Source: Ignavibacteria bacterium
GTDB taxonomy: Bacteria > Bacteroidota > Ignavibacteria > Tepidaquicellales > Tepidaquicellaceae
Assembly (NCBI GenBank): GCA_036262055.1
Contig: DATAJP010000003.1
Span: forward strand, 186,001-250,000
Length of the DNA stretch: 64,000 bases
Direction of reading: 5' to 3'
A program made the position numbers and the translations under genes. Below, piece after piece: positions 3,396 to 20,486 of the stretch (position 1 is the first letter of the stretch; the number at the start of each line of letters is the position of its first letter). The notes under the pieces are model-generated. The model was not told where the DNA came from and searched no databases. It saw only the letters and a list, made by a program, of their open reading frames with translations.

Positions 3396-4073
3396 ATGGT
3401 TAAACCCGAAAATACAGATAAAAAAATAGAAGAGCTTCAAAAGACAGGAGGCAAGAAATTTAATAAAAAAATTCTTGAAACAATCGAGAATTATAAAAAG
3501 CTGACTGATGAGGAGAAGAATTGTTTTCATATTTATTATGGTTACGGGAAGGGCAAAACTACTGCAACTATGGGCTTAACAATGCGTGCACTTGGCGCAG
3601 GGAAGAAAGTTGCAATTGTACAATTTGATAAAGGTCATAATCCTGATAAAGAGCATTACGCAGAAAGAATTATTTTGAGAAAACTTAAAGAACTTGGTTA
3701 TCCGATTGATATTTACCCGACAGGATGCGAGCGAATGAACGCGGATGGAACGTTCCGTTTCAAAAATCAGGAGGAGGATTTTAAAGAAGCACAGAGAGGG
3801 GTGGGTATTGCAAAAGATTTAATTGAAAAAGGCGGAATTGATTTGCTCATTTTAGATGAAGCAATTGCTGCGGTTGATTATCATCTGCTTGATAAAAAAG
3901 ATGTTGACGAACTTATTGATTTATACAAAAAAAATAAAAAATTTGAATTAGTAATGACCGGGCATAAATTGTGGGAAGGTCTCGAAGAAAAAGCCGACCT
4001 TGTTACTGAAATGAGAAAAGTGAAACATTACTTCGATGCGGGAATTCCTGCACGTGAAGGGATTGAGTTTTAA
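3396..4073 (+). CDS. cobO: Corrinoid adenosyltransferase, CobA/CobO/BtuR type
   Basis: 225 residues. Transfers the adenosyl group of ATP to the cobalt of a reduced corrinoid, in vitamin B12 synthesis or salvage. The modified P-loop GYGKGKTT (49-56) is followed by ALGAGKKVAIVQFDKG, LLILDEAIAAVD (Walker B region) and the family's C-terminal LVTEMRKVKHYFDAGIPARE, which are all typical. About 40 extra residues precede the P-loop; ATG at 3396 is the only good start, as the terminator lies just before. It stands alone, with no other cobalamin genes in the window, which suggests salvage or scattered synthesis genes. Confidence 0.93.
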   Translation: MVKPENTDKKIEELQKTGGKKFNKKILETIENYKKLTDEEKNCFHIYYGYGKGKTTATMGLTMRALGAGKKVAIVQFDKGHNPDKEHYAERIILRKLKELGYPIDIYPTGCERMNADGTFRFKNQEEDFKEAQRGVGIAKDLIEKGGIDLLILDEAIAAVDYHLLDKKDVDELIDLYKKNKKFELVMTGHKLWEGLEEKADLVTEMRKVKHYFDAGIPAREGIEF

Positions 4074-4083
4074 GCAACCTTCT

Positions 4084-4108
4084 GTCATTCCCGCGAAGGC
4101 GGGAATCC
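4084..4108. repeat. Dispersed palindromic repeat, family A
   Basis: GTCATTCCCGCGAAGGCGGGAATCC, arms CATTCCCGC and GCGGGAAT(C), 11 bases after the cobO stop. Same element as at 5361, 20491 and 54131 with one or two changes in the loop. Confidence 0.93.
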
Positions 4109-4362: not shown

Positions 4363-5352
4363 ATGCAGTTAAAAGATACTTCGAAGATAAAATATTTTAA
4401 TTCGCTGCCTTCAGCTGAATTAACTGGAAGTATTCCTGATAACGGGCATATAAAGATATACATAGAACAGGCTGCTTTATCAGGAATTGAACATCATTTA
4501 TCATCGGATAAAAACAACGAACTTGGCGGAGTCCTTACCGGATATAACTGCAAATTGCACTCAGGTGAATCCTTTATAATAATAAAAAATTTCATTAAGG
4601 CAGGCTTTACGAATTCCTCCGTTTCGCGTTTGACTTTTACTTATCAGACCTGGGAGCAAATAAACAACGAGCTTGAAAATAAATTTCCTGATGAGATAAT
4701 TCTCGGCTGGTATCATTCTCATCCCGGACATTCTGTTTTTCTATCCGATTATGATGTTTTTATTCAAAAGAATTTTTTTAATTTGGAGTTCATGGTTGCA
4801 TATGTTTTTGACCCGACCATAACTCAGCGTGGATTTTTCTTCTGGAACGGCGACAAAATTGAAAAAGCAAAAGGATTTTATGTAATTAATAATGAAGAAT
4901 TAGTAATGAATAATGAAAAATCAGCTGAGCGAAAAACAGGAAATGATTTAAATGAGCTCGAAAAACAGATTGAAGTGAAGCCAAAGAACATAAATAATAT
5001 TACCATTTTATTGCTGATAATTAACTTTGCAATTCTATCCTTTTTAATTTATCAGGTATACTCGATTAAGAGCAATATTGAGAACCTTGCGGTTAATACG
5101 CTTGAAACCGAAAAATTGAAATCAGATTATAAATATTTGAACCAGAAGCTCGAAGACCATATTATCGAAGGTCAGTTAGATAATGCCGGTTCAATTGATT
5201 ATACAGTTAAAGATAATGACAACATTAAAGGAATAGCATATTTTTTTTTGAATGATTCGAGCAAATATATTGATATATTAAGTTTTAATAATTTATCCGA
5301 CCCTAACCAGGTTGTTAAAGGAATGAAGTTAAAGATTCCTGTTTTAAAATAA
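4363..5352 (+). CDS. Membrane-anchored JAMM (MPN+) metallopeptidase with C-terminal LysM domain
   Basis: 329 residues in three parts. Residues 30-175 are a JAB1/MPN/Mov34 domain with a complete JAMM zinc site: E53 (NELGG), H118 and H120 in HSHPG, S128 and D131 in SDYD, the set used by Rpn11/AMSH deubiquitinases and by bacterial JAB isopeptidases. Residues 212-231 form one membrane helix, preceded by a charged linker that contains a repeat-derived segment. After a coiled-coil-like stretch (235-270) comes a LysM-like domain (279-326, YTVKDNDNIKGIA...NQVVKGMKLKIP). By topology the JAMM part is probably cytoplasmic and the LysM part periplasmic. It is followed, after two palindromic repeats, by an E2-like gene. 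Fold and metal site are clear; the substrate is unknown. Confidence 0.9.
   Translation: MQLKDTSKIKYFNSLPSAELTGSIPDNGHIKIYIEQAALSGIEHHLSSDKNNELGGVLTGYNCKLHSGESFIIIKNFIKAGFTNSSVSRLTFTYQTWEQINNELENKFPDEIILGWYHSHPGHSVFLSDYDVFIQKNFFNLEFMVAYVFDPTITQRGFFFWNGDKIEKAKGFYVINNEELVMNNEKSAERKTGNDLNELEKQIEVKPKNINNITILLLIINFAILSFLIYQVYSIKSNIENLAVNTLETEKLKSDYKYLNQKLEDHIIEGQLDNAGSIDYTVKDNDNIKGIAYFFLNDSSKYIDILSFNNLSDPNQVVKGMKLKIPVLK
4897..4921 (+). repeat. Copy of the AT-rich intergenic repeat inside the JAMM coding sequence
   Basis: GAATTAGTAATGAATAATGA and five more bases match the repeat at 551-575 (minus strand) at nearly every position. It encodes part of the asparagine/glutamate-rich linker INNEELVMNNEKS between the JAMM domain and the membrane helix, with no frame disruption. 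Confidence 0.5.
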
Positions 5353-5360
5353 AAAACGAA

Positions 5361-5386
5361 GTCATTCCCGCGAAGGCGGGAATCCC
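5361..5386. repeat. Dispersed palindromic repeat, family A
   Basis: GTCATTCCCGCGAAGGCGGG followed by AATCCC; 8 bases after the JAMM stop. Arms can pair into an 8-10 bp hairpin. It stands side by side with a family B copy (5401). Confidence 0.93.
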
Positions 5387-5400
5387 AGTATTAAAGTAAG

Positions 5401-5427
5401 GGGATTCTTCGCTACGCTCAGAATGAC
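5401..5427. repeat. Dispersed palindromic repeat, family B (GGGATTCTTCGC...GCTCAGAATGAC)
   Basis: GGGATTCTTCGCTACGCTCA then GAATGAC. The inverse orientation of the copy at 56544 (GTCATTCTGAGCGAAGCGAA...). Families A and B share the ends GTCATTC and GAATCCC, so they may be related elements. Confidence 0.88.
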
Positions 5428-5441
5428 ATACGAGAATATTT

Positions 5442-5993
5442 ATGACACCAAGAAAAAGAAGATTAAATTCAGATTACGAAAAGCTTATTACCGAATTCAA
5501 GAATCACCCGTACATAAAATTAGAAGTTGAAGATAATAACGGAGCAGTGCCGGAAAGATATTTTGTTACATTCAAAGATGTTCGCGGAATAAAGCTTGAG
5601 GACGGCTCGACTAAAGAGAAAAAAGTATTGAGATATATTTCACAGCATAAGATTGAAATTTATCTGCATCTTGATTATCCGAGAGTAAAACCACAATGTT
5701 TTTTGCTGACTCCGATTTTTCATCCGAATTTCAGAATGGCATCGCCTCATGATATTTGCATAGGTGATTTTTGGGCTCCCGGTGAGACGCTTGTTGATAT
5801 AATTTATCAGATAGGTGAAATGCTTCAGTATAAAAATTATAACGTTACCAGTCCGCTCAATGGGGTTGCCGCAAAATGGGCAAGAGAGCATACCAAATAT
5901 TTTCCTACTGACCAGAAAGATTTAAGAATAGGTGAGTTGGATATAAATATTGATAATGCTGATAAGGAAGAAATAAATATTGAATTTAAATAA
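5442..5993 (+). CDS. E2 ubiquitin-conjugating-enzyme-like (UBC-fold) protein
   Basis: 183 residues matching the E2 fold from end to end. An opening helix RRLNSDYEKLITEF (6-19) is followed by a beta meander, the YP (79-80) before the PxxxLLTPIFHPN strand, the HPN tripeptide (94-96) that supports the oxyanion, and a cysteine C106 in DICIGDFW at the position of the E2 catalytic cysteine (HPN+10 here, HPN+8 in UbcH5). Then come W111, APGETLVDIIYQIGEML (the TLxxII helix after the active site) and SPLNGVAAKW (137-146), resembling the NPLN/AA segment of eukaryotic E2s. The last 30 residues are acidic and probably disordered. It follows the JAMM gene by 89 bases on the same strand. I infer thioester transfer of a ubiquitin-like protein; an inactive UEV-type role is less likely because the cysteine is present. 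Confidence 0.88.
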   Translation: MTPRKRRLNSDYEKLITEFKNHPYIKLEVEDNNGAVPERYFVTFKDVRGIKLEDGSTKEKKVLRYISQHKIEIYLHLDYPRVKPQCFLLTPIFHPNFRMASPHDICIGDFWAPGETLVDIIYQIGEMLQYKNYNVTSPLNGVAAKWAREHTKYFPTDQKDLRIGELDINIDNADKEEINIEFK

Positions 5994-5996
5994 TAT

Positions 5997-6521
5997 ATGA
6001 TAGCGCCATATAAAGGCATATATCCTAAGATTCACGACTCGGTTTTTATGTGCGAGGGTTCGCATATAATCGGTGATGTTGTTCTTGAAGAAAATGTCAG
6101 TGTTTGGTTCAATACTGTCATTCGAGGTGACGTAAATTACATAAGAGTTGGAGCAAGAACAAACCTTCAGGATAACTCGACGCTTCATGTTACTTATAAA
6201 AAGTACCCGCTTGTAATAGGAGCAGACGTAACAATCGGCCACAATGCTATTGTTCATGGATGTACTGTAAAGGATAAAGTTTTAATCGGGATGGGCGCAA
6301 TTTTGCTTGATAAGTGTGTGGTTAATTCAAATGTCCTCATCGGAGCAGGAACGTTGATTAAGCAAGGTTTTGAGGTTCCTGAAGGGGTTCTGATAGCCGG
6401 TGTGCCCGGAAAAATAATTAGAGACCTCAAACAGGATGAGATTGAAATGATTCAGCAGAGTGCAAAGAACTATATGATGTATGTTGAAATGTATCAAAAA
6501 GAGGACACTTTTAACCCTTAA
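5997..6521 (+). CDS. Gamma-carbonic-anhydrase-like hexapeptide-repeat protein
   Basis: 174 residues of left-handed beta-helix, the YrdA/PaaY/CaiE group of gamma-class carbonic anhydrase homologues. Repeats run from about residue 15 to 145, and the three zinc-ligand histidines are all present in STLHV and IGHNAIVHG; RGDVNYIRVG and DNSTLH are family signatures. A C-terminal helix follows (from LKQDEIEMI). It starts 3 bases after the E2-like stop, so the two are co-transcribed. Carbonic anhydrase activity varies in this group, so the enzyme role is uncertain; no link to the E2/JAMM pair is implied by the family. Confidence 0.9.
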   Translation: MIAPYKGIYPKIHDSVFMCEGSHIIGDVVLEENVSVWFNTVIRGDVNYIRVGARTNLQDNSTLHVTYKKYPLVIGADVTIGHNAIVHGCTVKDKVLIGMGAILLDKCVVNSNVLIGAGTLIKQGFEVPEGVLIAGVPGKIIRDLKQDEIEMIQQSAKNYMMYVEMYQKEDTFNP

Positions 6522-17417: not shown

Positions 17418-18479
17418 TTGCCAAAGCTAATTTCTGTCAAAATTGCCGATTTACCGAATAAAGTCAGACAATCTGACCTAAAAGAGTTTGTTTCTGAGAT
17501 GTTTTCATCAAAATTCAAGGATACTGAAAAACTTTTGGATGTTTTTGAAAATACACAGATAAAGACCAGAAATATGAGCTTGCCTGTTGAATATTTTTAT
17601 GAAAAACATGATTGGCAGTCAAAGAATGATATTTTTATTGTTAAAAGTTTAGAAATTTTAGAGCCGATGGTAAGTGAAATTTTATCTGAAGCAAGAATTT
17701 CATTAAAGGATATGACAGATATCTTTTTTGTTTCATCTACAGGAATTTCAACCCCGACAATTGATGCTATGTTAATAAATAAGTTAGGAATCAATGAGCA
17801 TGTCAACAGATATCCGATGTTTGGCTTAGGGTGTGCGGGCGGCGTTTCAGGATTAGCAAAAGCATTTACTGCTGCGAAGGCAAATCCCGATGCAGTTATT
17901 TTAGTTATTGCCATCGAGCTTTGCACTTTGACTTTTATTAAGGATGATATTTCAAAAAGTAATTTTATTGCAACAAGTTTGTTCTCAGATGGAGCTGCAG
18001 TCTGTCTTTTGACAGGTGACAATGTAAAATCGAATGAAGCGTATGAAATAAATTATCAATCTTCTTTAAGCAAGATTTATCCGGACTCGCTTGATGTAAT
18101 GGGATGGGAAGTCATTAATGACGGATTAAAGGTTGTGTTTTCAAGGGACATTCCGGAAATTGTTAAGAATAATGTTGCAAAGGATTTAAACTATTTTCTT
18201 GAACAAAATAAAATAACTCTTCGTGATATTAAGAATTTCATAATTCATCCCGGCGGTGTTAAAGTAATTAAAGCATATATTGAGAGTCTAAAAATTTCTG
18301 AAGAAAAACTAAAATTTACAAGTGAGGTGATGATGGATTATGGTAATATGTCAAGTGTAACAGTTCTTTATGTCCTGAATAAATTTTTGAAAGAAGGATT
18401 TGAAGATGGTTATGGAGTTATGCTTTCACTCGGTCCGGGCTTTTCAAGCGAGATGTTATTATTGAATATGAAAAACTAA
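17418..18479 (+). CDS. Type III polyketide synthase (chalcone-synthase-like)
   Basis: 353 residues. Homodimeric thiolase-fold enzyme that extends an acyl-CoA with malonyl-CoA to give pyrones or resorcinols. The catalytic triad is visible: C139 in MFGLGCAGG, H277 in FIIHPGG and N310 in DYGNMSS, with the closing LGPGFSSEMLLL as in chalcone synthases. The start is TTG at 17418; MPKLISV begins about where other family members begin. The next gene is an ICMT-like methyltransferase, the same pairing as BpsA/BpsB of Bacillus, which make alkylpyrone methyl ethers. The product here is therefore likely a long-chain alkylpyrone or alkylresorcinol for the membrane; this is inference. Confidence 0.93.
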   Translation: MPKLISVKIADLPNKVRQSDLKEFVSEMFSSKFKDTEKLLDVFENTQIKTRNMSLPVEYFYEKHDWQSKNDIFIVKSLEILEPMVSEILSEARISLKDMTDIFFVSSTGISTPTIDAMLINKLGINEHVNRYPMFGLGCAGGVSGLAKAFTAAKANPDAVILVIAIELCTLTFIKDDISKSNFIATSLFSDGAAVCLLTGDNVKSNEAYEINYQSSLSKIYPDSLDVMGWEVINDGLKVVFSRDIPEIVKNNVAKDLNYFLEQNKITLRDIKNFIIHPGGVKVIKAYIESLKISEEKLKFTSEVMMDYGNMSSVTVLYVLNKFLKEGFEDGYGVMLSLGPGFSSEMLLLNMKN

Positions 18480-19393: not shown

Positions 19394-20486
19394 ATGTTTG
19401 ACCAACAAAAATATATTTTAAAAGATTATAAAGAAAAGTTACTAAAACTACGGAGGTTTCTTTGAATTAGATGAGAAAACATCTAAGGTAAAGGAACTCG
19501 AAAAAATCACGGAAGCTGCAAACTTCTGGGATGACCAAAAATCCGCACAAGCAACACTTCAGGAAATTTCCAATCTAAAAAAATGGGTTGATGAATATAA
19601 AAGGGTAGAAATGCTTTACTCTGATCTTGAACTTCTAATTGAAATTTCAGAGTCTGAAAAAAACGAATCCGCAGAAAATGAAATTCAAGCCGAGCTTGAT
19701 AAATTTATAAAAGAACTTGACGAGCTTGAGTTCAAAAATATGTTATCAGACCCTGATGATATTCGTGATTGCATTATCACTATAAACTCAGGAGCGGGCG
19801 GAACAGAATCTCAGGATTGGGCTGAAATGCTTTTGAGAATGTACCTGCGTTATGCGGAAAAACATAAATTCAAAGCTTCGCTTGTCGATAGATTAGACGG
19901 CGATGGCGCGGGAATTAAAAGCGCAACAATAGAAGTATATGGGCAGTATGCTTTCGGTTATTTAAAAGCAGAAAACGGGGTTCATCGCCTTGTGAGAATT
20001 TCTCCGTTCGATGCAAACAAAAAACGACATACATCATTCGCAGCAGTTTATGTCACCCCGATAATAGATGACACAATTGAAATTGAAATTAATCCGGCAG
20101 ATTTAAAAATCGATACATATCGTTCAGGTGGTGCAGGAGGACAGAACGTTAATAAAGTTGAGACTGCCGTGAGAATAACACACGTTCCTTCGGGAGTTGT
20201 TGCGGCATGCCAAACTGAACGCTCTCAATTGCAAAATCGTCAGAATGCGATGAAAATGTTAAAATCGAAATTATACCAAATTGAAAAACAAAAAGAGCTC
20301 GATAAAATTCAGACAATTGAAAAATCCAAGAAAAAAATTGAGTGGGGAAGCCAGATAAGAAGTTATGTTTTTCATCCGTATAATATGGTCAAAGACCACA
20401 GAACCGGTCATGAAACAAGCAATACTCAGGCAGTTATGGACGGTGAATTGGATGAGTTTATCCGTGCATATTTATTAAGCGATTAG
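19394..20486 (+). CDS. prfB: Peptide chain release factor 2, with programmed +1 frameshift
   Basis: A short zero-frame ORF (ATG at 19394) reaches an in-frame TGA at 19463-19465 after 23 codons; the rest is in the +1 frame. Joined, the protein is 363 residues. The site is the classical RF2 autoregulatory one: CTT TGA preceded by CGGAGG, an internal Shine-Dalgarno-like sequence three bases upstream of CTT. Low RF2 favours the shift, high RF2 favours termination. RF2 identity is certain from SPF (203-205), which reads UGA/UAA, and GGQ (248-250) for hydrolysis, at almost the same positions as in E. coli. A caller that ignores frameshifts would start at ATG 19611 and lose 72 residues. Confidence 0.97.
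19451..19465 (+). promoter_or_regulatory. RF2 programmed frameshift site
   Basis: CGGAGGTTTCTTTGA: the GGAGG pairs with the 16S rRNA tail during elongation, CTT is the slippery codon and TGA is the poorly terminating stop. After the shift the frame continues GAA TTA GAT GAG. Confidence 0.95.

Follow-up and report, generated by a model that had tools for sequence, protein, structure and literature searches.

Two distant loci of an Ignavibacteria genome probably encode one ubiquitin-like conjugation pathway

The window analyzed here is a stretch of 64,000 nucleotides from an Ignavibacteria genome (C3:186001-250000). It contains a gene for a JAMM-type protease followed directly by a gene for a protein resembling ubiquitin-conjugating enzymes (E2), which raises the question of what such a pair does in a window that encodes no activating enzyme (E1), ubiquitin-like protein (Ubl), or RING protein. 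Our answer, to which we assign a probability of about 0.74, is that a complete pathway for conjugating a ubiquitin-like protein is split into two loci in this genome, and that the pair supplies its E2 and its deconjugase.

The second gene of the pair (5442-5993, plus strand) encodes a protein of 183 amino acids. This protein matches the Pfam family UQ_con (5.8e-8, above the curated cut-off), and its best matches in a phmmer search of the PDB are E2s of the Ubc13/UBE2N type (4e-5); no match was found in NCBIfam. The AF2 model, for which the input alignment contained 25 sequences, has a mean pLDDT of 81.5. All of the 50 best-listed Foldseek matches of this model in the PDB are UBC/E2 entries, with a top E-value of 3.8e-8, a probability of 1.00, and TM-scores, normalized by target, of 0.6-0.75. 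The HPN motif (residues 94-96, 5721-5729) and the candidate catalytic cysteine C106 (5757-5759) are invariant in all 27 aligned E2 sequences, which come from two phyla, Bacteroidota and Chloroflexi, and reach down to approximately 24-35% identity in Saprospiraceae and Anaerolineae. According to the orthologue alignment, the C-terminal tail (5931-5990) carries the strand-like motifs GELDINI and EEINIEFK. The former is kept in nearly all Ignavibacteria orthologues, and distant relatives have similar tails.

Repeated strand-like motifs were also observed in the E2 tails of the relatives L030-L035 and L037. In the Anaerolineae cluster, [RK]-V-[KH]-[ILM]-[KR] motifs are found at the C-termini of the E1, the E2, and a vWA protein, and a similar string is found in a Saprospiraceae JAB protein. 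These are possibly docking motifs, the pattern being derived from the same data.

The first gene of the pair (4363-5352, plus strand) encodes a protein of 329 amino acids with matches to the Pfam families JAB (4.1e-11) and LysM (9.6e-5); its top match in the PDB is an Rpn11-like protein (1.3e-8). The JAB domain occupies residues 31-138 (4453-4776), and its zinc and catalytic residues E53 (4519-4521), H118 (4714-4716), H120 (4720-4722), S128 (4744-4746), and D131 (4753-4755) are unchanged in all 24 aligned sequences. The domain is followed by a transmembrane (TM) helix predicted from hydropathy (residues ~212-230, 4996-5052), a coiled coil, and a C-terminal LysM domain (PF01476, residues 280-326, 5200-5340, above the curated cut-off), which is predicted to be periplasmic. 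Among 18 orthologues, the JAB domain and one predicted TM helix were found in all and LysM in 16, the other two having no LysM match. An earlier reading of this DNA, made from the sequence alone (herein, the sequence-only reading), had described the protein at 5442 as an E2 with HPN and C106, and the gene before it as encoding a JAMM domain with all zinc ligands. Pfam, the PDB matches, the UBC fold of the model, and the conservation of C106 and of the JAMM ligands all agree with this description; the TM helix and the LysM domain are additional to it.

The pair lies between housekeeping genes. Upstream of it is a gene for a cobO-type corrinoid adenosyltransferase (3396-4073, plus strand; Pfam, 6.3e-50) and downstream a gene for a left-handed beta-helix (hexapeptide) protein (5997-6521, plus strand), both outside the system. 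The hexapeptide gene was found in all eight tested genomes that lack the pair. The cobO gene adjoins the hexapeptide gene or is one gene away from it in the five tested genomes of the family that have no pair. Thus, where the rest of the system is absent, the JAMM-E2 cassette is absent from its site and the hexapeptide flank remains.

All matches to ThiF, Ubl, and Prok-RING_1 in the genome lie outside the window, as the sequence-only reading had noted for E1, Ubl, and RING proteins. A search of the whole genome placed all three partners on another contig, in a Ubl-E1-RING locus at C2:372219-375664. Therefore, of the earlier suggestion of a reduced or split system without a local E1, "split" stands and "reduced" does not.

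The Ubl of this locus (C2:372219-372491, approximately 1.1 kb before the E1 gene) is a protein of 91 amino acids with a single YukD-type domain; its best Pfam match is YukD (PF08817, 1.1e-14), followed by ubiquitin (2.8e-5). Its AF2 model is a beta-grasp fold (pLDDT 87.6), for which Foldseek returned SUMO, ubiquitin, and Caldiarchaeum ubiquitin at approximately 1e-6. In the window's genome, the protein ends in ITAG|SL. The ITAG string was found in all 20 complete copies from Ignavibacteria; it is final in nine of them and followed by 1-23 more residues in 11. These tails are unrelated to each other (SL, S, I, MSS, NAF, RF, SIHR, SRSMLNVKC, and one longer), and free distant homologues end in glycine. 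Varied tails after an invariant glycine are what would be expected if a protease trims a precursor. The Ubl is also the most conserved part, with a mean pairwise identity of 0.88, compared with 0.63 for the E1, 0.63 for the E2, 0.44 for the RING protein, and 0.40 for the JAMM protein.

The E1 (C2:373596-374750) is of the ThiF type (Pfam, 7.7e-53) and has no rhodanese domain. Its cysteine C183 is kept in 18 of 18 sequences, even in L058, which lost C164, C167, C252, and H255, the presumed zinc ligands. Taken together, these data make the identities of E2, JAMM, E1, and Ubl almost certain. In total, three ThiF genes were found in the window's genome, none of them in the window. The other two, in L002 (C2:1093650-1097003) and L003 (C2:1049579-1052899), were considered as sources of the partner E1 and rejected, each belonging to its own four-gene set with E2-like and JAB-like genes. 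These paralogous sets encode a small, possibly Ubl-like protein, a protein of 277-295 amino acids with an HPN..C E2-like stretch, a ThiF protein, and a JAB-like protein with HxHP...D. Only ThiF was clearly recognized in them by Pfam, NCBIfam, and PADLOC; the JAB match is weak.

Co-occurrence of the two loci was analyzed in 44 genomes of the order. JAMM, E2, E1, and Ubl were found together in 21 of these genomes, two genes being hidden or truncated by contig ends, and the other 23 lack all four. Counted by gene, the E2 was found in 20 genomes, JAMM in 21, the Ubl in 21, and an E1 of this type in 20; in G328, the E1 is represented by no more than a C-terminal fragment (residues 282-384). Absence of the E2 from G321 was rejected as a real loss; the JAMM gene of that genome lies at a contig end (C317:32-772). 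The expectation that genomes with the pair would also encode an E1 and a Ubl was borne out: both were found in the same 20 genomes as the E2, with the E1 of G328 as a fragment only. Genus g2 is mixed, with all four genes in one member and none in two. The co-occurrence statistic is inflated by relatedness, yet the absences are not confined to a single lineage. The E1 and E2 genes lie on different contigs in all 19 comparable genomes; in the window's genome, the two contigs are approximately 1.17 Mb each. A wide spread of the system in the phylum was rejected, the E2 profile being positive in only 4 of 395 sampled genomes. A link of the E2 to mobile elements was rejected as well, as no relative was found in the phage collection and one was found in the plasmid collection.

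In distant relatives the same parts are found side by side, and for this reason the partners were assigned to one system. In Saprospiraceae, the locus L035 and the related locus L037 (G064) contain E1, Ubl, and E2 genes followed by a JAB gene, and L034 contains E1-Ubl-E2 up to the contig end. In Anaerolineae (L031-L033), genes for the E1, a Prok-RING protein, a Ubl::E2 fusion, a free Ubl, and JAMM follow each other in a row. A cyanobacterial Crinalium plasmid has genes for ThiF, two small ORFs, E2, and Mov34/MPN in a row. With the co-occurrence, these arrangements make it very probable that E2, JAMM, E1, and Ubl of Ignavibacteria belong to one pathway. Additionally, the Ubl is encoded twice in Anaerolineae (L032, 5713-6627, 6699-6965, and 7683-9673): one copy forms the N-terminal part of a fusion with the E2, and the other is a free protein ending in TAG. 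An FHA-like and a vWA-like membrane protein are encoded downstream.

The third gene of the C2 locus (C2:374756-375664, directly after the E1 gene) encodes a Prok-RING_1 protein (PF14446, 3.9e-13) with a RING, a zinc ribbon, one TM helix, and an NTF2-like domain. No ATG, GTG, or TTG precedes the codons of the first zinc ligands, and CTG is the likeliest start. Among 20 orthologues, the PF14446 match and one predicted TM helix were found in all, and the C-terminal NTF2-like domain in at least 19. Relatives of this domain include Pfam Cds6_C and the NTF2-like part of Pgp2, a peptidoglycan peptidase. The N-terminal side of the TM helix is more positive than the C-terminal side in 20 of 20 RING orthologues and in 14 of 18 JAMM orthologues (three ties and one reverse; the signal is neutral in the window's own JAMM). 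Therefore, the catalytic domains of both proteins are placed in the cytosol, and both are predicted to be single-pass membrane proteins.

Sequence and comparison show the parts, the conservation of their active residues, their co-occurrence, and their side-by-side position in distant relatives. How the parts would act, on which proteins, with the RING protein as E3 and under control of the envelope, we infer as follows. The JAMM protease would trim the tail of the Ubl (ITAG|SL) and expose Gly89; the E1 would adenylate the Ubl and take it up on C183; and the E2 would receive it on C106. The pathway is likely to be active in Ubl conjugation. The membrane-anchored Prok-RING_1 protein, as the E3, would direct the Ubl to proteins at the cytosolic face of the inner membrane, and the membrane-anchored JAMM protease would take it off again. 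The state of the envelope may set the balance between tagging and untagging, because a cell-wall type of domain, NTF2-like in the RING protein and LysM in the JAMM protein, is predicted outside the cytoplasm in both. In a more specific version, ligase and deconjugase would both be single-pass receptors of the inner membrane that sense the cell wall with their NTF2-like and LysM domains in the periplasm and so set the Ubl tagging of cytosolic-face proteins. This reading, a housekeeping use in envelope signaling and not in defence, is tentative and somewhat below even odds.

The weakest link in this scheme is the RING protein, whose role as the E3 of the pathway we regard as reasonably likely. 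Alternatively, E1, Ubl, E2, and JAMM could conjugate without a dedicated E3, as in Bil, and the RING-TM-NTF2 protein could be an envelope protein with its own function. In genus g142, genomes that have none of the E1, Ubl, E2, and JAMM genes retain an orthologue with intact RING ligands, as confirmed for G311 and G313. A menA-like gene lies close to it, which is also the case in the window's genome. The persistence of this orthologue without the other four genes means that the RING protein may have a function of its own; the g142 orthologue itself could be a relic or serve an independent role. A second Prok-RING_1 protein of approximately 500 amino acids (C3:969303-969428 in the window's genome, L110) is found in most family genomes regardless of the Ubl system, which also speaks for an independent RING protein. 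On the other hand, the RING gene adjoins the E1 gene in all 20 full E1 loci, the RING ligands are invariant in 20 of 20 orthologues, and a Prok-RING_1 domain is encoded within the contiguous Anaerolineae cluster, so that we consider conjugation without a dedicated E3 unlikely. Prok-RING_1 was rejected as a strict indicator of the system, as 28 of the 44 genomes carry one, including some without the system.

Prokaryotic E1-E2-RING-JAB systems with a YukD-type Ubl were reportedly predicted by Burroughs et al. in 2011. A set of JAB, E1, prokaryotic RING E3, and Ubl-E2 fusion has been described in conflict systems (PMC7159879, citing Burroughs 2011). The Ignavibacteria set has the same five parts: a Ubl with a C-terminal glycine, a ThiF E1 with its cysteine, an HPN-Cys E2, a JAMM protein with its ligands, and a Prok-RING protein. 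The Anaerolineae relatives, with RING, Ubl::E2, free Ubl, and JAMM in one cluster, correspond to such systems; their JAMM protein has no TM helix. In contrast, the Ignavibacteria genes form two distant loci, a single cluster being seen in distant relatives only; the Ubl is not fused to the E2; the RING and JAMM proteins both combine a TM helix with an extracytoplasmic domain; and no MoxR-vWA or FtsH conflict genes are linked. Because of its split loci, a departure in gene order alone, the Ignavibacteria set is considered a variant rather than a plain member.

In Caldiarchaeum subterraneum, a cascade has been reconstituted biochemically in which a tailed pro-ubiquitin is trimmed by an Rpn11-type JAMM protease and E1, E2, and a RING E3 take part (PMC5654768). 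The Ignavibacteria set has the corresponding parts; it differs in its AG end, membrane proteins, and split loci from the compact archaeal locus with a small RING and a di-glycine end. In operon types 6a-6e, which contain E1-like, E2-like, JAB, and Ubl genes (Iyer et al., 2006; PMC1779556), JAB is fused to or immediately beside the E1, whereas JAMM of the window lies beside the E2 on C3, far from the E1 on C2. BilABCD/Bub systems likewise have a bacterial Ubl, E1, E2, and a JAMM deubiquitinase, and are characterized by two Ubl domains in BilA, the CEHH active site of BilB, a compact four-gene operon, and no RING (PMC11354881, PMC13373217). The comparison with Bil/Bub made in the sequence-only reading finds no support in detail, as the Ignavibacteria have a single 91-aa YukD-type Ubl, an HPN-class E2, and no defence context.

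The next alternative is a system directed against phages or used in conflict, of the Bil/Bub/CBASS-like or MoxR-vWA type. In its favor, defence is a known setting of bacterial E1/E2/JAB modules, conflict systems include related E1-RING-JAB-Ubl::E2 sets (PMC7159879), and the distribution shows losses. However, PADLOC gave no match for the E2 or the Ubl and only generic matches for JAB and E1; the pair is present as a single copy at a fixed place, which, in line with the sequence-only reading, lies between housekeeping genes and not in a defence island; no effector, MoxR, or caspase gene was seen next to either locus; and the Ubl is strongly conserved. A defence function therefore appears improbable. 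Finally, the Ubl and E1 could be a sulfur-carrier pair or part of type VII secretion, with the E2/JAMM pair unrelated, given that YukD is the best match of the Ubl and that cofactor pathways contain MoeB/ThiF-like relatives of the E1, but we consider this highly improbable, as no WXG100 protein was found in a search of the genome, the E1 profile is nearer to UBA1/UBA3 than to MoeB, and the two loci co-occur and have their genes contiguous in distant groups.

The split conjugation pathway is of a kind predicted earlier by Iyer, Burroughs, and Aravind; its split loci, its housekeeping site, and its TM-anchored ligase and deconjugase with extracytoplasmic domains set it apart as a variant that appears to be new, as none of the papers searched describes this Ignavibacteria form. 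Predictions of bacterial E1-E2-RING-DUB sets go back years, but the tested bacterial ones found in that search are immune-type operons. The pathway described here looks chromosomal, slowly evolving, ubiquitin-like in its conservation pattern, and tied to the membrane, and within a bacterial family it appears to be kept or lost as a unit. With it, the role that full ubiquitin-type conjugation has in bacteria beyond immunity could be tested, as could the way in which a ligase and a deconjugase come under transmembrane control. No 20S-type proteasome subunits were found in the genome, its sole proteasome-family gene reading as HslV.

Several minor features of the window were also observed. A dispersed palindromic repeat, TCATTCCCGCG-NNN-GCGGGAATCC, is present in six copies, at 508, 4085, 5362, 18528, 20492, and 54132, compared with none in shuffled sequences. 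One copy lies in the gap between the JAMM and E2 genes (5362-5385, plus strand) and another upstream of the JAMM gene (4085-4108), so that this gene is flanked by two copies. A gene at 17418-18479 was identified, by eye only, as a type III polyketide synthase (chalcone synthase-like). In the prfB gene (19395-20486), 24 codons precede the classical programmed frameshift site (GGAGGTTTCTTTGA).
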